Source of the DNA: an uncultured Candidatus Competibacteraceae bacterium
GTDB taxonomy: Bacteria; Pseudomonadota; Gammaproteobacteria; Competibacterales; Competibacteraceae
NCBI GenBank assembly: GCA_937872125.1
Contig: CALMNY010000117.1
Location: forward strand, 1 to 16,635
Length of the DNA: 16,635 nt
Reading direction: 5' to 3'
Each line of letters begins with the position of its first letter. The stretch's first letter is position 1. The notes under the pieces are model-generated. The model saw only the letters and a program-made list of their open reading frames with translations, was not told the origin of the DNA and ran no database searches. Position numbers and translations under genes: made by a program. This document shows, piece by piece, positions 91 to 16,481 of the stretch.

Positions 91-1188
91 TCATGTATTT
101 TCTCTCATCGGCTTTAATCTCACCCGCCAATCCCTTCCCACCGCCCGCATTTCCAGGATTTCCAATTCCCATCGTTCCTGCATCTTCGTCAACCCTGGCA
201 ACTGAAACAGCCCACGCGCCTTGTCGCCGAGCAACAGTGGGGCCATGTAAATCACCAGTTCATCCACCAGTCCCGCCTGCAACAAGGCGCCGGCCAGGGT
301 CGCACCACATTCCACATGGACTTCATTGCACTCGCGGCGGGCGAGTTCGGCCATGACGGCGAGCAACTCCAGCCCCTGTTTGGCGCGCGGCAAAATGACG
401 ATTTCCGCTCCTGCCGCCCGCAGCAATTCATGCGCGGTGGGATCGGCAACGGCGGTGAAAATCAGCACCGAACCGGGTAACCGCAATGTCCGAGCGGTCG
501 GCGGGGTACGCAAGCCGGAGTCGAGAATCACCCGCAACGGCTGCCGGGTCGCTTCCGGCAGGCGGACGTTGAGGCTGGGATCGTCGGCCAGCACCGTACC
601 GATGCCGGCCAGGATCGCCGAAGCGCGCGCCCGAAGTCTTTGCACGTCCTGCCGCGCCGCTGCGCCGGTCAGCCATTGGCTTTCGCCCGAAGCCAGCGCC
701 GTGCGCCCGTCCAGGCTCATCGCCAGCTTGACCCGCACCCAGGGCCGGCCTGTGGTCATCCGCTGGATGAAACCGGGATTCAGCGCCCGCGCTTCCGTTT
801 CCAGCAGATCGCATTCCACTACGACGCCAGCATCGCGCAGGATAGCCAATCCTTTACCGGCCACTTGCGGATTGGGGTCGGACATGGCCGCCACCAACCG
901 GACAATTCCGGCTTTGAGCAGCGCATCGGTGCAGGGCGGAGTGCGACCATGGTGGCAGCAGGGTTCCAGGGTGACATACGCCGTCGCGCCGCGCGCCCGT
1001 TCGCCGGCGGCGTTGAGCGCGTTGACCTCGGCGTGCGCTTCGCCGGCGCGCTGGTGCCAACCTTCGCCAACGACGCTTCCCTCCTTGACCAGCACACAAC
1101 CCACACGGGGATTGGGATCGGTGCTATACAAGCCGCGCCGGGCGAGCGTCAAAGCGCGCGCCATGAAGCGGTAATCTTCGGGGAACAT
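91..1188 (-). CDS. ribD: RibD, bifunctional riboflavin biosynthesis deaminase/reductase
   Basis: Bifunctional cytosolic enzyme of riboflavin synthesis. It deaminates the pyrimidine made by GTP cyclohydrolase II, then reduces its ribosyl side chain using NADPH. The protein is 365 aa, the usual length for the family (E. coli about 367). The N-terminal deaminase domain (about residues 5-150) carries the zinc and catalytic motif HAE (H52, E54) and the paired cysteines of PCCHHGRTPPC (C77, C86). The C-terminal reductase domain (about 150-365) has the expected RPWVRVKLAMSLDGR start and a late VDELVIYMAPLLLG segment. The start at 1188 gives [13 protein letters not shown], the family N-terminus. The frame is open further upstream but that stretch is a shadow of nrdR. 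The ATG overlaps the nrdR stop as TAATG and no strong Shine-Dalgarno is visible, so translational coupling is likely. Downstream rib genes, if present, lie outside the window. Confidence 0.95.
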   Translation of the reverse strand: MFPEDYRFMARALTLARRGLYSTDPNPRVGCVLVKEGSVVGEGWHQRAGEAHAEVNALNAAGERARGATAYVTLEPCCHHGRTPPCTDALLKAGIVRLVAAMSDPNPQVAGKGLAILRDAGVVVECDLLETEARALNPGFIQRMTTGRPWVRVKLAMSLDGRTALASGESQWLTGAAARQDVQRLRARASAILAGIGTVLADDPSLNVRLPEATRQPLRVILDSGLRTPPTARTLRLPGSVLIFTAVADPTAHELLRAAGAEIVILPRAKQGLELLAVMAELARRECNEVHVECGATLAGALLQAGLVDELVIYMAPLLLGDKARGLFQLPGLTKMQERWELEILEMRAVGRDWRVRLKPMRENT

Positions 1189-4227: not shown

Positions 4228-4659
4228 ATGACTGCCATAGAGCCACAGGATATTTTCCCGCGCGACCGCCAGCCGACCGTCCGCATTCTGGCGATGCCGG
4301 CCTACACCAATCCCAACGGCAACATTTTCGGCGGCTGGATCATGGCGCAGATGGACGTGGCCGGCAGCGTGGTGGCGGTGGAATACGCCGGCGGGCGGGT
4401 AACCACCGTGGCGGTCACCTCGATGGAGTTTCACAAACCGGTATTCGTCGGCGATCTGGTGAGCTGCTTCGCCCGGATTCAGAAGGTGGGTTCAACCTCG
4501 ATCACCGTCAAGGTCGAGGTCTTCGTCCAGCGCGCCCGCGATGGCCAGTTGCTGACCGACAAGGTCACCGAGGCCGTGATCGTCTACGTCGCCATTGACG
4601 ATAGCGGCAAGCCGCGCAAACTGCCGGAACGAGGGCCGGATTTCGGGCGGTATTGGTGA
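4228..4659 (+). CDS. yciA: YciA-like hotdog acyl-CoA thioesterase
   Basis: Hotdog-fold thioesterase that hydrolyses acyl-CoA to free acid and CoA in the cytosol. YciA homologues have broad substrate range and are thought to balance CoA pools and membrane lipid supply. The protein is 143 aa (E. coli YciA 132). It shows LAMPAYTNPNGNIFGGWIMA followed by the catalytic aspartate region QMDVAGS (D43), then VTSMEFHKPVFVGDLVSC and YVAIDDSGKPRKLP, all typical of YciA. The ATG at 4228 is chosen because AGAGGAG lies 5 nt upstream and family homology begins shortly after. An earlier in-frame ATG at 4168 precedes non-homologous sequence. It is divergent from the deacetylase gene and 83 nt ahead of vapB, which has its own promoter. 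Confidence 0.92.
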   Translation: MTAIEPQDIFPRDRQPTVRILAMPAYTNPNGNIFGGWIMAQMDVAGSVVAVEYAGGRVTTVAVTSMEFHKPVFVGDLVSCFARIQKVGSTSITVKVEVFVQRARDGQLLTDKVTEAVIVYVAIDDSGKPRKLPERGPDFGRYW

Positions 4660-4698
4660 ACGCGGGCGGCGGCAAAATGCCTGGTTTGCGGGGACGAT

Positions 4699-4725
4699 GT
4701 GATATACTGCAAAGCCATATATCAC
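4699..4725 (+). promoter_or_regulatory. vapBC promoter and probable VapB operator
   Basis: An 8-bp perfect inverted repeat, GTGATATA (4699-4706) and TATATCAC (4718-4725), with 11 nt between the arms. The left arm overlaps TATACT (4703-4708), a good -10 hexamer. The -35 region is weak. VapB and VapBC complexes are known to repress their own operon through short palindromes at the promoter, so this is the expected autoregulatory site. It ends 17 nt before the vapB start codon and just upstream of the GGAGG ribosome binding site. Confidence 0.6.
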
Positions 4726-4742
4726 TCTTGCTGGAGGTTATC

Positions 4743-4997
4743 ATGCCCAAAACCGCCAAAGTATTCATGAGCGGCCGCAGTCAGGCCGTGCGGCTGCCGG
4801 TCGAGTTTCGCTTTAATTGCCCCGAAGTTTTCATCGAAAAGCAGGGTGAAACCGTGGTGCTGCGCCCTAAACCAACCAACCTGAGCGAAAGTCTGGCAGA
4901 GTTCTTCGCCAGAACGGAACCCTTTCCAGATGATTTTCTCGCTGACCGCCAGGATGAACCGCCGCAGGATCGGGAGTGGTTCCATGTGGACGCTTGA
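4743..4997 (+). CDS. vapB: VapB-type antitoxin (AbrB/SpoVT fold)
   Basis: Antitoxin of a type II toxin-antitoxin pair: it binds and blocks the adjacent VapC ribonuclease and represses the operon. The protein is 84 aa. The N-terminal swapped-hairpin DNA-binding domain (about residues 1-47) shows KTAKVFMSGRSQAVRLP and a later EVFIEKQGETVVLRP. The acidic, flexible C-terminus (about 50-84) would wrap the toxin. GGAGG lies 5 nt before the ATG. Its stop overlaps the vapC start by 14 nt, consistent with coupled synthesis. A palindrome over the promoter is listed separately. Confidence 0.92.
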   Translation: MPKTAKVFMSGRSQAVRLPVEFRFNCPEVFIEKQGETVVLRPKPTNLSESLAEFFARTEPFPDDFLADRQDEPPQDREWFHVDA

Positions 4998-5382
4998 TAC
5001 CAATATGTGCAGTTACATTCTGCGCAGGCATTCTTCTCAGGTTATCGCGCACTTTGAAAGACTGGAAGCGAGCGATCTGTTCCTGTCGGCGCTGGTGGCG
5101 GCGGAATTGCGCTATGGGGCCGCGAAGCTGGGTTCAAGCAAGTTCGCGGGCTATCTGGAGGACTGGTTACGCCTTTTCGATCTGCGTCCGTGGCCGGTGA
5201 CTGCTTCCCAGCATTACGCCCGCTTGCGGTGCGATCTCGAACGCCAGGGCACGCCCATCGGTGGCATGGACCTGCTGATCGCCGCCCACGCGCTGGCCGA
5301 GAACGCCGTGCTGGTGACCAATAACCTGCGCGAGTTCGGGCGGGTGCCGAACTTGCGGCTGGAAAACTGGATGGGGCCGTAA
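4984..5382 (+). CDS. vapC: VapC-type PIN-domain toxin ribonuclease
   Basis: PIN-domain endoribonuclease toxin. Characterised VapCs cleave initiator tRNA, other tRNAs or 23S rRNA; the target here is unknown. The protein is 132 aa, the normal length. Acidic metal-binding residues are D5 (MWTLDTN), E41 (VAAELRYGA) and D96 (GGMDLLIAAHA). The fourth position, in LVTNNLREFGRV, has asparagine (N114), which is common in this VapC subgroup. The start at 4984 is the conserved MxxLDTN start and lies inside the vapB coding sequence (14-nt overlap). It ends 9 nt before the convergent hydantoinase remnant. Confidence 0.93.
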   Translation: MWTLDTNMCSYILRRHSSQVIAHFERLEASDLFLSALVAAELRYGAAKLGSSKFAGYLEDWLRLFDLRPWPVTASQHYARLRCDLERQGTPIGGMDLLIAAHALAENAVLVTNNLREFGRVPNLRLENWMGP

Positions 5383-5391
5383 AAGGATCGC

Positions 5392-6252
5392 TCAGCCATA
5401 CCCTCCACCGCCCGGCGTTTCGATCACGAACAGATCATTAACCCCTATCGTCACTTGCGCCGTGCCCGGCAGTTCTTCCGTCTGGCCATCGGCCCGTTCC
5501 ACCGCGTTACGTCCGACCTGGCCCGGTTTGCCACCCGCCAGACCGTAGGGCGGAATGCGGCGATGACCGGACAAAATCGCGGCGGTCATCGGTTCCAGAA
5601 ACCGAATCCGTCGAATCACGCCGTCGCCGCCACGCCAGCGGCCCGCACCACCGCTGCCCTTGCGGATGCAAAATTCTTCCACTCGCACTGGAAACCGCCA
5701 TTCCAGCACTTCCGGGTCGGTCAGCCGCGAATTGGTCATGTGGGTGTGTACCGCCGAGGCGCCGTCAAAGCCTGGTCCCGCGCCAGCCCCGCCACAGATC
5801 GTTTCGTAATACTGATGCTGTTCGTTGCCGTGGGCCGAAACCCGCTCGCGCACTTCCGCCACCCGTTCGTACAGCAGTTCCGGCAACACGATCTGACGGG
5901 CGAACAACTTGGGCCGGTTCTGATAACCGATACGCAGGGCGTCGCGAAAGCCTTGCGTGATCAGTAGCAGGGTGCGGTCGCCCTTGCGTTCCAACAGGGC
6001 ATTGGTGGCGACGGTGGTTCCCATCTTCACCGCCGCGATGGATGCAGCGGGAATCGGCTGATCCGCCGCCACGTTCAATAAGTCACGGAGACCCCGCAAG
6101 GCGGCGTCGGGGTAATGCTCGGGATTATCCGACAGCAGTTTGTGTGTCAGCAGGCGGCCATCGGGCCGGCGGGCGACAATGTCGGTAAATGTGCCGCCCC
6201 GGTCAATCCAGAATTGCCAGCGGGCGGGAGTCGGGGGAGCGGGAGCGATCAT
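5392..6252 (-). pseudogene. Internally deleted 5-oxoprolinase / hydantoinase (HyuA start joined to HyuB end)
   Basis: 5-oxoprolinases and N-methylhydantoinases carry an ATPase-like HyuA part and a HyuB part, together about 1,200 aa when fused. This frame encodes only 286 aa. Residues 1-142 match the start of HyuA ([17 protein letters not shown] phosphate motif; [31 protein letters not shown]). From about residue 143 the sequence jumps to the end of HyuB ([51 protein letters not shown]; final ETPGGGGYG). The rest of HyuA and most of HyuB are absent, and the join near 5824-5830 keeps the frame. The ATG at 6252 is chosen because homology begins just after it. Activity is unlikely. It could be a real deletion remnant or an assembly misjoin. 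Confidence 0.85.
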
Positions 6253-6510
6253 GGCGGTCTTCCAATCATAATATTTCCGAATGAATATTGAGTTTTTGGT
6301 AGTTGATACCACCTACCTTAATCACGCCCTCGTTGTTATGCTTTTTCATCAGTCTCCTCCGCACTCTGACTGATGATGGTTGACAACATCACCGAGTGCT
6401 TCGACTGGCCGGAGTTGACATCAAGTTCTCAGGTTCATTGGGAGCGCAGGGCGGATCCATCCCATTTGCTTCTAACCCTTTACTGTCTACTGCCCACTCA
6501 TGAGGCCCGT
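6253..6510. other. AT-rich divergent gap between hydantoinase remnant and ispH
   Basis: This 258-nt region separates two divergent genes. The part near 6261-6350 is AT-rich and carries the small ORF listed above. The ispH-proximal part has two TTGACA hexamers (6380-6385 and 6415-6420), but neither has a good -10 at standard spacing, so the ispH promoter is not resolved. The plus-strand frame is open into ispH but shows no IspH homology before 6511. Confidence 0.4.
6266..6349 (-). CDS. Possible 27-aa small ORF or gene fragment upstream of the hydantoinase remnant
   Basis: A short frame, ATG at 6349 to TGA at 6266, encodes a 27-residue peptide beginning [14 protein letters not shown]. It has a strong GGAGGAG 4 nt upstream. 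It lies in a clearly AT-rich patch unlike its neighbours and ends 13 nt before the hydantoinase start. No family is recognised. It could be a small leader peptide, the 5' stub of a deleted gene, or chance. Confidence 0.25.
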
Positions 6511-9747: not shown

Positions 9748-12700
9748 ATGAATGCAGCAATCCACCAGAACCTTCCTTCAACCCGAACATTGATCTCCAT
9801 GTCACCGGCCCACCTGCTGCCCATCCTGCTCCTCACGGTGTTTTCGCTCATGTCGCCGCTCCTAACCATCGCCGCCGCGCCTGAACCGCCAACCGCTATC
9901 GCCGCCCCTGCGCGCAAGACCATCCTGCTCGATGACTTCGAGAATATCGGCGGCTGGAGCGCGCTCACCTCGCCTACCGCCCGCCTGGAAATCGCCCAGG
10001 ACGCTGGCCGTACCGGGCGGGCGCTGCGGCTGGATTTCGAGTTTCAGGACGGAACCGGTTGGGTCATCGCCCGCAAGGCGTTTCCCATGCGCCTGCCCGA
10101 CAATTTCGCCTTCCACTTTGTTTTGCGCGGCGATGCGTCGCCCGGCAACGCCGAATTCAAGCTGGCGGATTCGCGTGAGAATGTCTGGTGGTTCAAAAAG
10201 GCCGAATATGCGATTCCCACTGACTGGCGGCCCATTACGGTCAAGCGGCGCCAGCTCAGTCTGGCCTGGGGGCCTGGCGGCCCACTGGACGAAGTGGCGG
10301 TGCTCGAATTCGCCTTCGCCCTGGGCAAGCCGGGCAAGGGTTCGGTGTGGATTGATGATCTGAGCTTCGAGCAGCGCGAGCCAGCCCACGCCTATACCCT
10401 GAACCCGACCATTCGCGCCTCCACTGCCGTCGAAGGCCAGCCACCGGACGCCGTGCTCGACCCCAATCCCGCCAGCCGCTGGCATAGCGGCGCCTTGGCC
10501 GAGGAGCAGTGGTTGCTGCTGGATTTTCTCACCCAGCGCGAGTACGGCGGTCTGGTGATTGACTGGGACCCGGAGGATTACGCCGCCGATTACGAAGTTC
10601 AGCTCTCCGACGATGGCGAGAACTGGCAAACCGTCTATCAGGTGCGCGACGGCGATGGTCGGCGCGATTATCTCTATCTGGCCGACGCCGAATCCCGTTA
10701 CCTGCGGCTCAACCTGCAACGCAGCAGTCGGACCCGTGGTTACGGCATCGGCCGCATTCTGGTCCAGTCCTACGAATTCTCCAGTTCGCCCAACCAGTTT
10801 TTCGAGACCATCGCCCGCGACGCGCCGCGTGGCTTCTATCCCCACTATTTCCAGGGCGAGCAGTGCTACTGGACTGTGGTGGGGGTTGCCGGCGACGGCA
10901 AGGAGGCGTTGCTCAACGAGGATGGCGCGCTGGAAGTGGACAAGGGCGGGTTCATCATCGAGCCGTTCCTGTTCGCCGATGGCCGGTTGATCACCTGGGC
11001 CGATGTGGATACCCGTCAGGACCTGGCCGAGGCTTACCTGCCGATTCCCACGGTGCGCTGGGAGCATGAATCCTACTGGCTGTCGGTCACGGCGTTCGCC
11101 GCTGGTCCGCCGGGCGCGTCGGCGCTGTACGCCCGCTACCAGTTGGAAAACCTGAGTCCCGATCCCCGCCATGTCACTCTGTATCTGGCGCTGCGACCCT
11201 TCCAGGCCGTTCCCCCCTGGCAGTCGGTGAATATGACCGGCGGCGTGGCCCCGATCCGTGCGCTGGAGTATGCCGACCGGACGATTCGGGTCAACCAGGG
11301 CGCTAAAACAGTCACGGTGCTGACCGCGCCCGACCGGTTCCGCGCCGCCACCTTCGATCAGGGAGCACTCACCGAGTATCTGGCGACGGGCAAATTGCCT
11401 GAACACAGCCGGGTTGAAGACTCTTTTGGCTATGCCTCCGGGGCGTTGGAGTACGGTTGGGATCTAAAGCCCGGCGAAAAGCGCGAAGTGGTGTTGCGCA
11501 TCCCGTTTTACGCTGCCGGGGCCAGCGGGCCGATCCCGGCAACCGCTGCCGAGGCCTCCGCTGAGGTTGATCGGCTCCTGGAACAGACCACCCGCGACTG
11601 GGCGATGCGGCTGGACCGGGTGGGTTTGGAACTGCCCCCCGTCGCGCAACGGCTGGCCTGGAGCATCAAGAGCAATCTGGCCTACATCCTGATCAACCGC
11701 GACGGCCCCGCCATTCAGCCCGGTTCGCGCAATTACGCCCGCTCCTGGATCCGCGACGGTGCGCTGACTTCCGCCGCCCTGCTAGGCATGGGCTACACCG
11801 AGGAGGTGCGGGAGTTCCTGCAATGGTACGCCGGCTATCAGGCGGCGGACGGCGCAATTCCCTGTTGCGTGGATGGGCGCGGGGCCGATCCGGTGCCCGA
11901 ACACGACAGCCACGGCGAATTCATCTACGCGGTGATGGAGTACTACCGCTACACCCGCGATGTCGGCTTCCTGCGACAAATGTGGCCGGCGGTGGTCCGG
12001 GCGGTTGGCTACATGGATTCCCTGCGCCAGCAGCGCCTAACCGAGAAGTATCGCACTGATCCGGACTGCGTGGCCTATTGCGGGCTGGTGCCGGAATCCA
12101 TCAGCCACGAGGGTTATTCCAGCCAGCCGCGTCATTCCTACTGGGACAACTTCTTCATCCTGCGCGGTTTCAAGGACGCGGCGCAGATGGCGGTGATTTT
12201 GGATGAGGACGCTGATGCGACGCGGTTTGCAGCGCTGCGCGACGCCTTCAGCAAGGATCTGTACGCTTCGATCCAGGAAACCCTCAAGCTGCACAAGATT
12301 GACTTCATTCCCGGCGCGGTCGAACTGGGCGATTTTGACGCGACCTCGACCACCATCGCCGTGGACCCGGGCGGCGAACTGGGGCGCCTGCCGCAACCGG
12401 CGCTGAATCGCACCTTTGAGCGTTATAACGAATTTTTCCGCCAGCGCCGCACCGAGGCGCAGTGGAACAACTATACCCCGTATGAGTGGCGGGTCGTGGG
12501 CACGATGGTCCGGCTGGGCTGGCGCGACCGGGCGCTGGAACAGATGGCGTTTTTCATGGAGGGTCAACGGCCCCCCACCTGGAATCACTGGGCGGAGGTG
12601 GTCTGGCGCGATCCCAAGACGCCGCGTTTCATCGGCGACATGCCGCATACCTGGGTGGGTTCCGATTTCATCCGCGCTGCGCGCAGCCTGTTCGTATTCG

Positions 12701-13026
12701 AGCGTGAGGCCGATCAGGCATTGGTGATTGGCGCGGGCCTGCCCGCCGCGTGGGTGGAAAGTCCCCAGGGCGTCACGGTGCGGCGGATGCCGACCTGGCA
12801 TGGCACTCTGAACTACCGGCTGGCGATGGCCGGCCCGGATGCGCTGCGGGCGCGATTGACTGGCGACGTGACCGTGCCGCCGGGGCGGATCATCCTGCAT
12901 TCACCGCTTGATCGGCCGGTGCGAGCAGCCACAGTCAACGGCCGGGCGGCAACGTTCACCGCTAACACCGTCACGGTGGATCAGTTCCCCGCCGAAGTGG
13001 AACTGCACTACGCCACCGCGCCGTAG
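9748..13026 (+). CDS. Exported discoidin-domain protein with six-hairpin glycosidase-like barrel
   Basis: A large (1,092 aa) probable periplasmic or secreted glycan-active protein of no named family that I can assign. An N-terminal signal has a hydrophobic core at about residues 22-43 ending in AAA before PEPP. Then come a galactose-binding-like beta domain (about 57-212; LLDDFENIGGW, VWIDDLSFEQ), a discoidin/F5-F8-like domain (about 214-344; DAVLDPNPASRWHSG), a beta super-sandwich (about 350-620), an alpha/alpha barrel (about 620-1000) and a C-terminal beta tail. Barrel motifs are RSWIRDGA (D670), HSYWDNFF (D800) and YTPYEWR (E913), candidate catalytic or sugar-binding residues. The start is uncertain: ATG at 9748 has no clear ribosome site, and ATG at 9799 would give a shorter signal without a basic residue. 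It lies 35 nt upstream of the GH94 gene, so they are probably cotranscribed. A carbohydrate role is inferred from fold and neighbour. Confidence 0.8.
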   Translation: MNAAIHQNLPSTRTLISMSPAHLLPILLLTVFSLMSPLLTIAAAPEPPTAIAAPARKTILLDDFENIGGWSALTSPTARLEIAQDAGRTGRALRLDFEFQDGTGWVIARKAFPMRLPDNFAFHFVLRGDASPGNAEFKLADSRENVWWFKKAEYAIPTDWRPITVKRRQLSLAWGPGGPLDEVAVLEFAFALGKPGKGSVWIDDLSFEQREPAHAYTLNPTIRASTAVEGQPPDAVLDPNPASRWHSGALAEEQWLLLDFLTQREYGGLVIDWDPEDYAADYEVQLSDDGENWQTVYQVRDGDGRRDYLYLADAESRYLRLNLQRSSRTRGYGIGRILVQSYEFSSSPNQFFETIARDAPRGFYPHYFQGEQCYWTVVGVAGDGKEALLNEDGALEVDKGGFIIEPFLFADGRLITWADVDTRQDLAEAYLPIPTVRWEHESYWLSVTAFAAGPPGASALYARYQLENLSPDPRHVTLYLALRPFQAVPPWQSVNMTGGVAPIRALEYADRTIRVNQGAKTVTVLTAPDRFRAATFDQGALTEYLATGKLPEHSRVEDSFGYASGALEYGWDLKPGEKREVVLRIPFYAAGASGPIPATAAEASAEVDRLLEQTTRDWAMRLDRVGLELPPVAQRLAWSIKSNLAYILINRDGPAIQPGSRNYARSWIRDGALTSAALLGMGYTEEVREFLQWYAGYQAADGAIPCCVDGRGADPVPEHDSHGEFIYAVMEYYRYTRDVGFLRQMWPAVVRAVGYMDSLRQQRLTEKYRTDPDCVAYCGLVPESISHEGYSSQPRHSYWDNFFILRGFKDAAQMAVILDEDADATRFAALRDAFSKDLYASIQETLKLHKIDFIPGAVELGDFDATSTTIAVDPGGELGRLPQPALNRTFERYNEFFRQRRTEAQWNNYTPYEWRVVGTMVRLGWRDRALEQMAFFMEGQRPPTWNHWAEVVWRDPKTPRFIGDMPHTWVGSDFIRAARSLFVFEREADQALVIGAGLPAAWVESPQGVTVRRMPTWHGTLNYRLAMAGPDALRARLTGDVTVPPGRIILHSPLDRPVRAATVNGRAATFTANTVTVDQFPAEVELHYATAP

Positions 13027-13061: not shown

Positions 13062-16000
13062 GTGTCCACCGACTTCCACACGCTGAGTAATAGCCGCTAC
13101 GCCACCGTCCTGAGCGCCGCCGGGACGGGCTATTCGACCTGGAACGGGTTGGCGCTGACCCGCTGGAACGGCGATCCGGTCGAGGACAACGACGGTTTTT
13201 TCCTGTACTTGCGCGATTTGGATAGCGGCGCGTGCTGGTCGCTGGGCCAGCAGCCGGTGGTTACGCCAGAGGCGCGGCGGGCCAGCCGGTTCAGCGATGG
13301 CAGCGCCGAGCTGCGCTGTGAATACGCGGGTATCGAAGCCGAGATGACGGTCGTCGTTCCCGGTGACGCCGATATGGAATTGCGGCGGGTGATTTTGCGC
13401 AACGCCAGCGACCGCCCCCGGCGCATCGAATTGACCAGTTACGCCGAGGTAGTGCTGAATGCGCGGGCCGCTGACGCCACCCATCCGGCTTTTTCCAAGT
13501 TGTTCGTGCAGACCGAGTGGGTCGCTGAACAGCGGGCGTTGCTGGCGCGGCGGCGACCTCGCGACGTCGGGGAACCGGTCTGCTGGCTGGTTCATGCGCT
13601 GATCGGCGATGGTGACGAAGTCGAGCGGCCTCACTATGAAACCGACCGCGCCCGATTCATCGGTCGAGGCTATTCGTTGGCTGGCCCACGGGCTTTGACA
13701 GGATCAATACCGCTGCTCCGCACCGTCGGCAACGTGCTGGACCCCATCGTCAGTCTGCGGCGAACGGTGGAATTGCCAGCGGGCGACTCAGCGCAAGTGA
13801 TGTTTCTACTGGGTGTGGCATCGGAACGAGAAGCGGCGTTGGCGCTGGCGACGGCTGTTGATCCATTCCCCCCCTCGATTGAGGGGGGGTGGCGCGTAGC
13901 GCCGGGGGGGTTCAGTCGCCAGAACCCGCAAACCACCCCGGCGCTGCGCGCCACCCCTCCTTATCCAAGGAGGGGAACTGATGGAAAAACCGAGCAGTTG
14001 GTTTTCAACGATGAACCGTTGCAATTCTGGAACGGCTACGGTGGCTTCAGCGCCGATGGAACCGAATACGTGATCCGGCTCCAGTCCGACGCCGGTGGAC
14101 GATTGAAACGACCACCGCTGCCCTGGGTCAACGTCATCGCCAATCCCCAGTTCGGTTTTCTGACCAGCGAGACCGGGGCTGGCTATACCTGGAGCCAGAA
14201 CAGCCGCGAGAATCGCCTGACCCCCTGGTACAACGATCCGGTGCTCGACCCGCACGGCGAGGCGCTGTACCTGCGCGACGAGGACGACGGCGCGTTCTGG
14301 TCGCCGCTGCCGGGTCCGGCTCCGCAACCGGCGCCTTACGAAGTCCGCCACGGGTTCGGCTACAGCCGCTACCGCTGCGTCAGCCAGGGGCTGGAACAGG
14401 ATACGTGGCTGTTCGTACCGCGCGAAGACCCGGTCAAAATCATCCGAATCCAGTTGCGTAACGTCAGCGGCCAACCGCGCCGGCTGTCGCTGTTCAGCTA
14501 TGCCCGGCTGGTGCTGGGGGTGTTGCCGGGAGACTACGCGGCGGATCTGGTCATCGAGCAGGATGCAACAACCGGCGCGTTGTTGGCCGAGAATCACAAC
14601 CGGGAATTCGCGGGCCGCGTCGCCTTCGCCGCCGTCGCCATGCCCGACGGCGTGTCGGCTTACATCAGCGGCGACCGGGCCAACTTCATCGGTCATCACG
14701 GCAGCCCGGCCCGCCCGGCGGCGCTTGAACGTGATGAGGCTCTAAACGGGCGACTGGGCGCGGGCCTCGACCCCTGCTTTGCGCTGCAAATCACGCTGCA
14801 ACTGGAGCCGGACGCGACGGTGGAATGCGCCTTCGTGCTGGGTGAGGCGGAAAATCGGGAGGAAGCCCGTCGGCTGGTCAACCGCTACCGCCAGGATGGG
14901 GCGATTGCGGCGGCGCTGGCCGAAGTGCGGGAATTCTGGCGCGACCGGTTGTCCGCCGTGCGCATTCAAACGCCCAGCCCGGCGCTCGATCTGATGGTCA
15001 ACGGCTGGCTGGCCTATCAAACCCTGAGTTGCCGGCTGTGGGGCCGCTCGGCGTTTTACCAGTCGGGCGGAGCGTTCGGTTTCCGCGACCAGTTACAGGA
15101 CGCCGCCGCGCTGGTTTACCACGACCCGGAACTGACCCGCCGGCAACTGCTGCTGCACGCCGCCCACCAGTTCCAGGAAGGCGACGTGTTGCACTGGTGG
15201 CATCCTCCCACCAGTTGCGGGATTCGCACCCGCTTCAGCGACGATTTGCTGTGGCTGCCGTATCTGGCGGCTTTTTACGTCCGCACCACCGGCGACTGGA
15301 CTCTGTTTGCTGAACCGGTGCGCTTCCTCAAGGCGCGAGAACTGGAGCCGGGCGAGGACGAGACCTTCCTGACGCCGGAGGAATCCGGCGAAGTCGCCAG
15401 CCTGTACGAACATTGTTGCCGGGCGCTGGATCGCTCGCTGACTCAGGGCGCGCACGGGCTGCCGCTGATGGGCACCGGCGACTGGAACGACGGCATGAAC
15501 CGGGTCGGACGCGAAGGGCGCGGCGAGAGCGTATGGATGGGGTTTTTCCTGTACGCCATTCTCGGCGACTTCATCCCGGTGTGCGGCCAGCACGGCGATC
15601 ACGACCGGGCGCGACGCTACGCCGCGTTCCGCCGCCATCTGGCCGAGGCGCTCAACGAACACGCCTGGGACGGCGAGTGGTACCGCCGGGCCTGGTACGA
15701 CGACGGCGCGGTGCTGGGTTCCGCCGCCAGCGATGAATGCCGGATTGACGCGCTGGCGCAGGCCTGGGCGGTGATTTCCAAGGCCGCACCTTGGGCCAGG
15801 GCCGAAGCGGCGCTGGATGCGGTCGAACGTCATCTGATTTCGGAAGCAGACGGTTTGATCCGGCTGCTGACGCCGCCGTTCGAGAACACGCCCCACGATC
15901 CCGGCTATATCAAGGGCTATGTGGCCGGGGTGCGGGAAAACGGCGGACAATACACCCACGCGGCGCTGTGGGTGGTGCGGGCGCTGGCGGAACTGGGGCG

Positions 16001-16481
16001 GCGCGACCGGGCGGCGAAGCTGTTGGAGATGCTGACGCCGATCCATCACACGCTCACCCCGGAAGCGGTGGCCGTTTATCAACTGGAGCCCTTCGTGGTC
16101 GCCGCCGATGTCTACGGCGCAGCGCCGCATGTCGGGCGCGGCGGTTGGAGTTGGTACACCGGCGCGGCGGGCTGGATGCTGCGGGGGGTGCTGGAATCCA
16201 TCCTCGGTCTGGAACAGGTCGAGGGGCATACCCTGCGGCTGCGGCCCTGCATCCCGGATGAATGGCCGGGTTTCCAGCTACATTACCGACTGCCGGCTGG
16301 CGATGGGGTCTATGACATCGAAGTCCGCAATCCCGACCGGCGCGCGGAGCGGGTTGCGGCGGTGATGATTGACGAGACGCCAGGCACGGTCGAGGCTGGC
16401 GCAGCCCACATTCCACTATGCCGCGATAGGAAAACGCACCGAGTCGTGGTGACGCTGCAACCACACCGACCCATTCCCTGA
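13062..16481 (+). CDS. GH94-family glycoside phosphorylase, NdvB C-terminal-like, without GT84 domain
   Basis: A 1,139-aa protein related to the phosphorylase half of cyclic beta-1,2-glucan synthases and to stand-alone beta-1,2-oligoglucan phosphorylases. No signal peptide or membrane segment is seen, so it is cytosolic. Order: first beta-sandwich (about residues 1-265; GTGYSTWNGLALTRW, HPAFSKLFVQTEWV, NVLDPIVSLRRTVELP); an insert encoded by a palindromic element (269-305); second beta-sandwich (about 320-600; LQFWNGYGGFSADGTEYVI, GAGYTWSQNSRENRLTPW); helical catalytic barrel from about 624 with GTGDWNDGM (D807/D810; the GH94 general-acid motif), RENGGQYTHAALW (N960-Q963) and GRGGWSWYTGAAGWM (W1029); C-terminal beta cap. 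The start is GTG with GGGGAG 8 nt upstream. The N-terminal glycosyltransferase of NdvB is absent, so synthesis of cyclic glucan is not expected; phosphorolysis of beta-1,2-glucooligosaccharides is the best guess. Confidence 0.85.
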   Translation: MSTDFHTLSNSRYATVLSAAGTGYSTWNGLALTRWNGDPVEDNDGFFLYLRDLDSGACWSLGQQPVVTPEARRASRFSDGSAELRCEYAGIEAEMTVVVPGDADMELRRVILRNASDRPRRIELTSYAEVVLNARAADATHPAFSKLFVQTEWVAEQRALLARRRPRDVGEPVCWLVHALIGDGDEVERPHYETDRARFIGRGYSLAGPRALTGSIPLLRTVGNVLDPIVSLRRTVELPAGDSAQVMFLLGVASEREAALALATAVDPFPPSIEGGWRVAPGGFSRQNPQTTPALRATPPYPRRGTDGKTEQLVFNDEPLQFWNGYGGFSADGTEYVIRLQSDAGGRLKRPPLPWVNVIANPQFGFLTSETGAGYTWSQNSRENRLTPWYNDPVLDPHGEALYLRDEDDGAFWSPLPGPAPQPAPYEVRHGFGYSRYRCVSQGLEQDTWLFVPREDPVKIIRIQLRNVSGQPRRLSLFSYARLVLGVLPGDYAADLVIEQDATTGALLAENHNREFAGRVAFAAVAMPDGVSAYISGDRANFIGHHGSPARPAALERDEALNGRLGAGLDPCFALQITLQLEPDATVECAFVLGEAENREEARRLVNRYRQDGAIAAALAEVREFWRDRLSAVRIQTPSPALDLMVNGWLAYQTLSCRLWGRSAFYQSGGAFGFRDQLQDAAALVYHDPELTRRQLLLHAAHQFQEGDVLHWWHPPTSCGIRTRFSDDLLWLPYLAAFYVRTTGDWTLFAEPVRFLKARELEPGEDETFLTPEESGEVASLYEHCCRALDRSLTQGAHGLPLMGTGDWNDGMNRVGREGRGESVWMGFFLYAILGDFIPVCGQHGDHDRARRYAAFRRHLAEALNEHAWDGEWYRRAWYDDGAVLGSAASDECRIDALAQAWAVISKAAPWARAEAALDAVERHLISEADGLIRLLTPPFENTPHDPGYIKGYVAGVRENGGQYTHAALWVVRALAELGRRDRAAKLLEMLTPIHHTLTPEAVAVYQLEPFVVAADVYGAAPHVGRGGWSWYTGAAGWMLRGVLESILGLEQVEGHTLRLRPCIPDEWPGFQLHYRLPAGDGVYDIEVRNPDRRAERVAAVMIDETPGTVEAGAAHIPLCRDRKTHRVVVTLQPHRPIP
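13868..13975. repeat. 108-bp nested palindromic element inside the GH94 coding sequence
   Basis: Two 45-nt arms (13868-13912 and 13931-13975) are inverted copies matching at 37 of 45 positions, with an 18-nt centre. Each arm holds a 9-bp hairpin with a 4-nt loop (left 13868-13889, right 13954-13975) and a GGCGC-3nt-GCGCC hairpin (13891-13903 and 13940-13952). The terminal hairpins differ by paired, compensatory changes. The element is exactly 36 codons and reads through in frame as residues 269-305 of the host protein, a Pro/Gly/Arg-rich segment (PFPPSIEGGWRVAPGG ... ATPPYPRRGT). The architecture is that of a REP/BIME- or MITE-like repeat. Confidence 0.8.

Follow-up and report, generated by a model that had tools for sequence, protein, structure and literature searches.

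The window, which is the whole 16,635-nucleotide stretch of DNA that was analysed, contains a GH94-family gene that carries a palindromic element in frame (Table 1). Pfam analysis of the encoded protein revealed a PF06165 sandwich, matched in two stretches, and a C-terminal catalytic domain, PF17167. The nearest solved structures were 8rf9 and 8rf0; residues 7-258 and 318-1078 of the protein aligned to positions 1543-1794 and 2023-2776 of 8rf9 respectively. By its sequence, the protein is similar to the C-terminal portion of cyclic beta-1,2-glucan synthase. The large gene upstream encoded F5/8 type C and six-hairpin glycosidase domains and is possibly a partner in glucan metabolism. Two small ORFs resembling a VapB/VapC-type toxin-antitoxin pair were also seen, as was a 306 amino acid ORF that resembled the start of one hydantoinase-type subunit fused to the end of another. 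The named homologues of the GH94 protein were from Ca. Contendobacter and Competibacteraceae, which agrees with the gammaproteobacterium-like host suggested in a preliminary description of this DNA.

Table 1. Features of the window (nucleotide positions) and in-frame copies of the repeat in other genes of the same genome (positions of the insert and of the domains in the encoded proteins)
Feature	Position	Strand	Basis or context
VapB/VapC-like pair of ORFs	4653-5382		by eye
Hydantoinase-like ORF	5392-6312		by eye
Large gene upstream of the GH94 gene	9748-13026		Pfam
GH94-family gene, ORF	13062..16481	+	ORF listing; PF06165 in two stretches and PF17167
Coding part of element, codons 269-306	13866..13979	+	AlphaFold2 pLDDT; linker comparison
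Arm A	13868..13912	+	inverted repeat, fold; model R1 E 3.3e-14 (arm used in building R1)
Arm A, stem	13868-13876/13881-13889
Arm A, small hairpin	13891-13895/13899-13903
Arm A, third-strand-like tail	13904-13912
Spacer between arms, 18 nt	13913..13930	+	tails of both arms point to spacer
Arm B, inverted	13931..13975	-	inverted repeat, fold; model R1 E 4.6e-15 (arm used in building R1)
Arm B, tail	13931-13939
Arm B, small hairpin	13940-13952
Arm B, stem	13954-13975
GH94, in-frame element copy			domains on both sides
leuS, insert	278-293		within editing domain 254-459; TIGR00396 38-916
valS, insert	237-255		within Anticodon_1 138-305; contig end cuts gene
MmeI-type methylase, first, insert	472-506		domain 353-630
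MmeI-type methylase, second, insert	475-511		domain 355-598
MmeI-type enzyme, third, insert	343-358		between domains 68-313 and 473-631
Type ISP methylase, insert	459-495		between N6_Mtase 390-428 (no single stretch passes alone) and Eco57I 566-739
ABC substrate-binding protein, insert	319-334		within 58-376

The two 45-nt arms and their spacer make up 108 bp, or 36 codons, and the ORF continues through them uninterrupted. Both the coordinates and the ORF agree with the preliminary description, which had reported a 108-bp element of two inverted 45-nt arms that leaves the frame open. The corresponding inverted repeat, I1 (52 nt, 81%), was the longest in the window's inverted-repeat listing. 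When folded as single-stranded DNA, the region between 13866 and 13982 had an energy of -52.6 kcal/mol, compared with -24.6 +/- 2.8 in 200 dinucleotide shuffles (z -10.06), none of which was equally low (0/200). Arms A and B differed at eight of 45 positions (5, 9, 11, 12, 14, 18, 30 and 41). The differences at 5/18 and 9/14 were compensatory, with C-G in one arm and T-A in the other, exactly as had been described before, and 14 of 14 stem pairs were formed in each arm. Additionally, tail position 41 co-varied with stem pair 5/18 between the two arms. Judged from sequence, this layout is that of triplex-type repeats, in which a hairpin is accompanied by a mirror third strand.

AlphaFold2 modelling of the GH94 protein (45-row alignment, mean pLDDT 78.4, pTM 0.84) gave good predictions for the domains on both sides of the element and a pLDDT below 50 at residues 270-273 and 278-314. 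The element-encoded peptide is predicted to be a disordered linker between two sandwich domains.

A pattern search of the window's own genome (G000, 80.7% complete) found 28 places, and a covariance model, R1, built from 13 arms including the window's two, found 41 matches; two overlapping matches on contig C135 represent one element in valS, which belongs to a different subfamily. In a set of 40 genomes, R1 matched 17 of the 25 that belong to the same family (own genome included) and none of the 15 outside it. When 299 genomes sampled from the phylum were searched with stricter filters, 38 had a match, own genome included; apart from the own genome, none of these 38 was from the family and none had a match better than E 6e-7. 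The number of matches was 145 in the relative G024, 70 in G013 and 44 in G011. Of 20 copies fetched in G024 from a subgroup with 46-nt arms, 17 were located inside a larger, nearly identical repeat whose outer flanks differed (L355-L371), and these copies are hitchhiking in another mobile element. Elsewhere in G000, a dimer (L024) was found to have the same two stem types as the window, with the tails inward. In the 108-bp element, two subtypes of this dispersed palindrome are joined head to head as a heterodimer.

The 41 matches in G000 merged to 30 loci, 17 of which were covered by a Pfam scan (10 of these also by NCBIfam). Eight of the scanned loci were in frame with domains spanning or flanking the insert (Table 1), three were probable coding copies (a V-ATPase subunit I, an SNF2 helicase and an MmeI gene truncated at a contig end) and six were unsupported. 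These six were not counted as coding: C302, C101, C81:110, C28 and C506 had long open frames with no Pfam match, and C343 had a long open frame with one sub-cut-off Pfam match elsewhere. In G024, the 30 best-scoring of the 145 matches included 10 whose open frame extended for 100 residues or more to either side. Nine of these frames carried Pfam domains, those of leuS, an MmeI methylase, a penicillin amidase and six polyketide-synthase stretches, two of which (L347 and L351) overlap. There is good support for the element and for its coding role. A dispersed palindromic repeat turned coding had been proposed in the preliminary description, and the genome matches together with the in-frame copies in leuS, valS, methylases and other genes bear this out.

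Alignment of relatives across the same sites revealed both occupied and short forms. The leuS loop, between GVRIGFPY and GILWVFTTR (23 sequences aligned), contained the window-type repeat in six genomes: G000, G004 (as a dimer), G024, G008, G011 and G021. Other C-rich palindromes were present in G006 and G018 and further inserts in G017 and G043; the loop was short in G003, G019, G040, G012, G009 and some others. In the valS loop after APLAG (19 sequences aligned), a CCCCCC..GGGGGG-type palindrome was found in G000, G003, G006, G018 and G041 and other inserts in G004, G021 and G017, while the remaining sequences were short. The presence of short forms of these loops in relatives supports the earlier claim that the coding sequence is repeat-derived. 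No target-site duplication was seen by eye at leuS or valS, and the flanks of the short forms vary.

A search with the GH94 insert region returned nine proteins: the window's own, seven GH94 relatives and a DsbD-family protein, P0009, which shared a 16-residue identical stretch with the insert. By eye, one stretch of P0009 contained three QTTPALRA-type repeats together with a PLAGEGLGVR peptide, so that members of several repeat families may have inserted at the same spot. Further GH94 orthologues had decayed forms of the insert, and the linkers of some contained peptides resembling other repeats, SPLAGEGRGEG and PPxFEKGGQGGF (decayed forms and peptides alike were judged by eye, in protein letters). 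In the GH94 gene of G003 the palindrome had decayed with the frame still open (-93.5 vs -119.5 kcal/mol for equal-length stretches, RNA energies). In that of G001 (L070/L086) most of the palindrome was gone and the frame was broken at that place, as expected if palindromes promote deletions.

The open frame across all 36 codons is what ordinary coding sequence, palindromic by chance, would also give. The fold z of -10, the 41 matches in the genome, homologue linkers that are unrelated or contain other repeat-like peptides, and the short sites of the sister insertions at leuS and valS stand against that reading, the probability of which is negligible. Neither a chance palindrome nor conserved GH94 residues withstood the evidence of fold, copy number and homologue comparison. 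The covariance-model search and homologue check proposed in the preliminary description did not end in a single copy with the same residues in palindrome-free homologues.

That description had further attributed the compensatory differences to selection for the hairpins or to repeat transposition. Selection for hairpins in the GH94 gene is unnecessary to explain them: because L024 joins arms of both stem types elsewhere in the genome, such differences may simply distinguish the subtypes, and G003 has lost much of the symmetry with its frame still open. It is very improbable that selection for a hairpin function of the RNA or DNA, such as attenuation or mRNA stability, has maintained the palindrome in the GH94 gene. 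The intact stem pairs of both arms fit such a function, but the frame of G003 persists despite a decayed palindrome and several orthologues show just a decayed peptide (protein letters only).

In their short palindromes, inverted dimers and many copies, the arms look like REP/BIME (REPIN) elements mobilised by a RAYT, the system that the preliminary description had brought up, and Y1-transposase matches were found in 19 of 25 genomes, own genome included. However, an arm was near one of the 30 Y1-transposase loci that were fetched from those listed (L117), the arms were without the terminal GTAG tag, and they bracketed genes of another kind, DUF559. Mobilisation by a RAYT is therefore improbable.

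Among 30 DUF559 (PF04480) loci, five had R1 matches, which at four of the five flanked the gene on either side in inverted orientation. Inspection by eye of the flanks of 12 strong DUF559 loci revealed a cognate hairpin repeat on one or both sides at 11. In further genomes of the family, window-type arms were present at the DUF559 gene of L309, L310, L311 and L315, and in the first three they were inverted on both sides. The loci with window-type arms on both sides of DUF559 were L152, L162, L309, L310 and L311. As is the case for MITEs, the ends are held in common with an element that carries an enzyme gene. Blastn alignment of L162 with L310 showed 90.5% identity over 527 bp, and that of L309 with L311 showed 91.1% over 481 bp. 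Both alignments stopped within ~10 bases of the arms, which span ~470-510 bp. Arm-DUF559-arm is a discrete unit in these two pairs of relatives. Extra shared flanking DNA was present on the right side of L309 and L310, and L309 and L311 shared a separate 557-bp stretch at other positions.

For a wider sample, contigs were scanned with a DUF559 alignment, which gave at least 576 relatives among at least 587 stretches, of which the 80 best were retained. The DUF559 gene was spanned by an inverted repeat (score >=16) at 50 of these 80, compared with 1/309 displaced window pairs and 0/1600 shuffles. In a gene-centred control, one of 207 other ORFs of 90-250 amino acids from 71 of the same loci was bracketed, these being mechanical ORFs and not verified genes. 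According to record titles, the bracketed 50 were from alpha- and gammaproteobacteria, Bacteroidota, cyanobacteria, Chloroflexi, Nitrospinae, Patescibacteria, an anammox planctomycete and an archaeon. For one or more of the 50 (L251) the repeat was simply a C-run. The other 30 loci were below the threshold. In the window's relatives, the inverted repeat was found at 21 of 23 strong DUF559 loci (those without were L150 and L315) and at none of 27 weak ones, which are not a clean control because many lie in larger open frames and the tested windows can fall within the gene.

Many of the arms flanking DUF559 consisted of a pyrimidine arm, a loop, a purine arm, a short or hairpin spacer and a tail mirroring the purine arm. 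Under a mirror rule that places G on G and A or T on A, such tails were found in 90 of 160 DUF559 flanks and 9 of 420 control flanks. By locus, 56 of the 80 had a mirror tail on at least one side and 34 on both, and the tail was directed away from the DUF559 gene in 53 of the 160 flanks. When asymmetric hairpins were picked by length alone, 56 of 95 tails mirrored the stem of their own hairpin with no more than one mismatch, compared with a mean of 18.9 and a maximum of 30 in 1000 permutations of the tails; 29 of the 95 tails fitted their own stem in unmirrored order. The tail of the window's arm B matched its own stem with no mismatch in nine positions and that of arm A with one.

G000 encoded a single DUF559 match, which was weak and had no arms, and in the high-copy genomes G013 and G011 no R1-flanked DUF559 gene was present among the fetched loci. 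A search of G011 and G041 for an empty site of the DUF559 unit found none, with only short arm-sized stretches among the matches listed. Across the 25 genomes of the family, R1 copy number had a median of 48 in the five with R1-flanked DUF559 (G002, G008, G017, G021 and G024) and 9.5 in the 20 without (Mann-Whitney p 0.010), a comparison given little weight because the genomes are related, the G017 flanks are irregular and the G024 count includes copies inside another repeat.

DUF559 might alternatively be a passenger of repeats that are moved by another enzyme or spread by recombination or slippage. The arms far outnumber the DUF559 units (in G024 there are 145 matches and one R1-flanked unit, L311), and copies in that genome, 17 of the 20 picked, ride in another repeat. 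Set against this, there are many different arm sequences across phyla, each bracketing a DUF559 gene of its own, and other ORFs of similar size were bracketed in 1/207, a distribution that would not result from a single capture. We regard a passenger role as unlikely, though of some weight.

Comparison of the DUF559 profile with solved structures identified 3hrl (E 4.8e-38) and 3r3p (E 2.4e-4). The latter is titled 'Mobile intron protein' and is a Vsr-like homing endonuclease, so that the DUF559 nuclease has a relative serving a mobile intron. According to PMC12907096, a DUF559 protein of Caulobacter is Vsr-like and causes an SOS response in a methyltransferase mutant. The DUF559 gene of E. 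coli K-12, ycjD (L176), had a triplex motif at 1706-1740, ~170 nt beyond its 3' end, and a similar hairpin was seen by eye at the 3' end; no triplex pattern was found upstream of the gene in the stretch taken. In a literature search that covered few subscription journals, no paper was recognised as linking DUF559 to dispersed repeats.

A DUF559 mobiliser is the best reading of these sequence relationships, and the 108-bp element is probably a non-autonomous derivative of a small DUF559 mobile element, mobilised by the DUF559 nuclease. The full form would be [arm>] DUF559 nuclease gene [<arm], with the gene swapped for a short spacer in the 108-bp element. The Vsr-like nuclease may recognise the arms as a hairpin or triplex and cut or nick them to start copying, a role like that of the RAYT for REPs. 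A copy would have entered the GH94 interdomain linker in an ancestor of several Contendobacter lineages, where the open frame of the GC-rich repeat and the flexibility of the linker may have allowed it to be tolerated, and it would since have drifted as ordinary coding sequence.

We hold the balance to be even on a wider proposal: that DUF559 (YcjD/Vsr-like) nucleases with triplex-type hairpin ends are widespread, unrecognised minimal mobile elements from which the PIT/TM repeats of E. coli and other bacteria arose, and that housekeeping proteins have repeatedly gained disordered peptides from their non-autonomous dimers. If true, this would provide an enzyme for a large group of bacterial repeats in which Holder et al. 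saw no link to mobile elements, and a role for a domain that Pfam still names 'unknown function'. It would also provide a non-Rickettsia counterpart of palindromic selfish DNA becoming protein, in which short sites and several insertions per loop can be compared.

According to the main text of PMC4666352 (Holder 2015), E. coli K-12 has 23 copies of the PIT/TM intrastrand-triplex repeats, which are always intergenic and whose inverted pairs always join type A with type B. That text reports no association of the copies with transposons, phages or plasmids, and stable PIT/TM triplexes in vivo were unsupported by that study's data; 'endonuclease' and 'ycjD' each have 0 occurrences in it. The window's arms are like the PIT/TM repeats described there in having a pyrimidine arm, loop, purine arm and mirror purine third strand, in their two-type inverted pairs and in being dispersed. 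They differ in the second loop, which is 14 nt and itself a hairpin (the PIT/TM limit in PMC4666352 is 1-6 nt), in a stem unlike the TMECO consensus CCCTCNCCC given there, and in having coding copies in the host.

In-frame REPs and RPEs inside genes are already known, with flexible linkers or loops suggested as sites, as set out in PMC3733652 (Di Nocera 2013). Like these RPEs and intragenic GTAG/CGTC REPs, whose dimers encode 20-30 residues, the window repeat is a palindrome found in frame in unrelated genes. The same paper links GTAG REPs to RAYT and gives no known enzyme for CGTC REPs. Unlike either, the window arms have no terminal tag in the alignment of 13 arms. The in-frame insertion into unrelated genes is shared with RPEs, whereas the host is not one of the Rickettsiales, the named GH94 homologues being from Contendobacter and Competibacteraceae.

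In REP/REPIN systems the single-gene partner, RAYT, is bracketed by the same palindromic repeats. The repeats studied here are similar in being palindromic and probably non-autonomous, with a candidate single-gene partner flanked by them, but this candidate is a Vsr-like nuclease and not a Y1 transposase, and the termini differ. Compared with the 3r3p system, there is no intron here and the DUF559 gene is bracketed by palindromic repeats. As a single-gene partner with palindromic non-autonomous dimers, the proposed system would be of a kind already known; the candidate enzyme and the ends are different.
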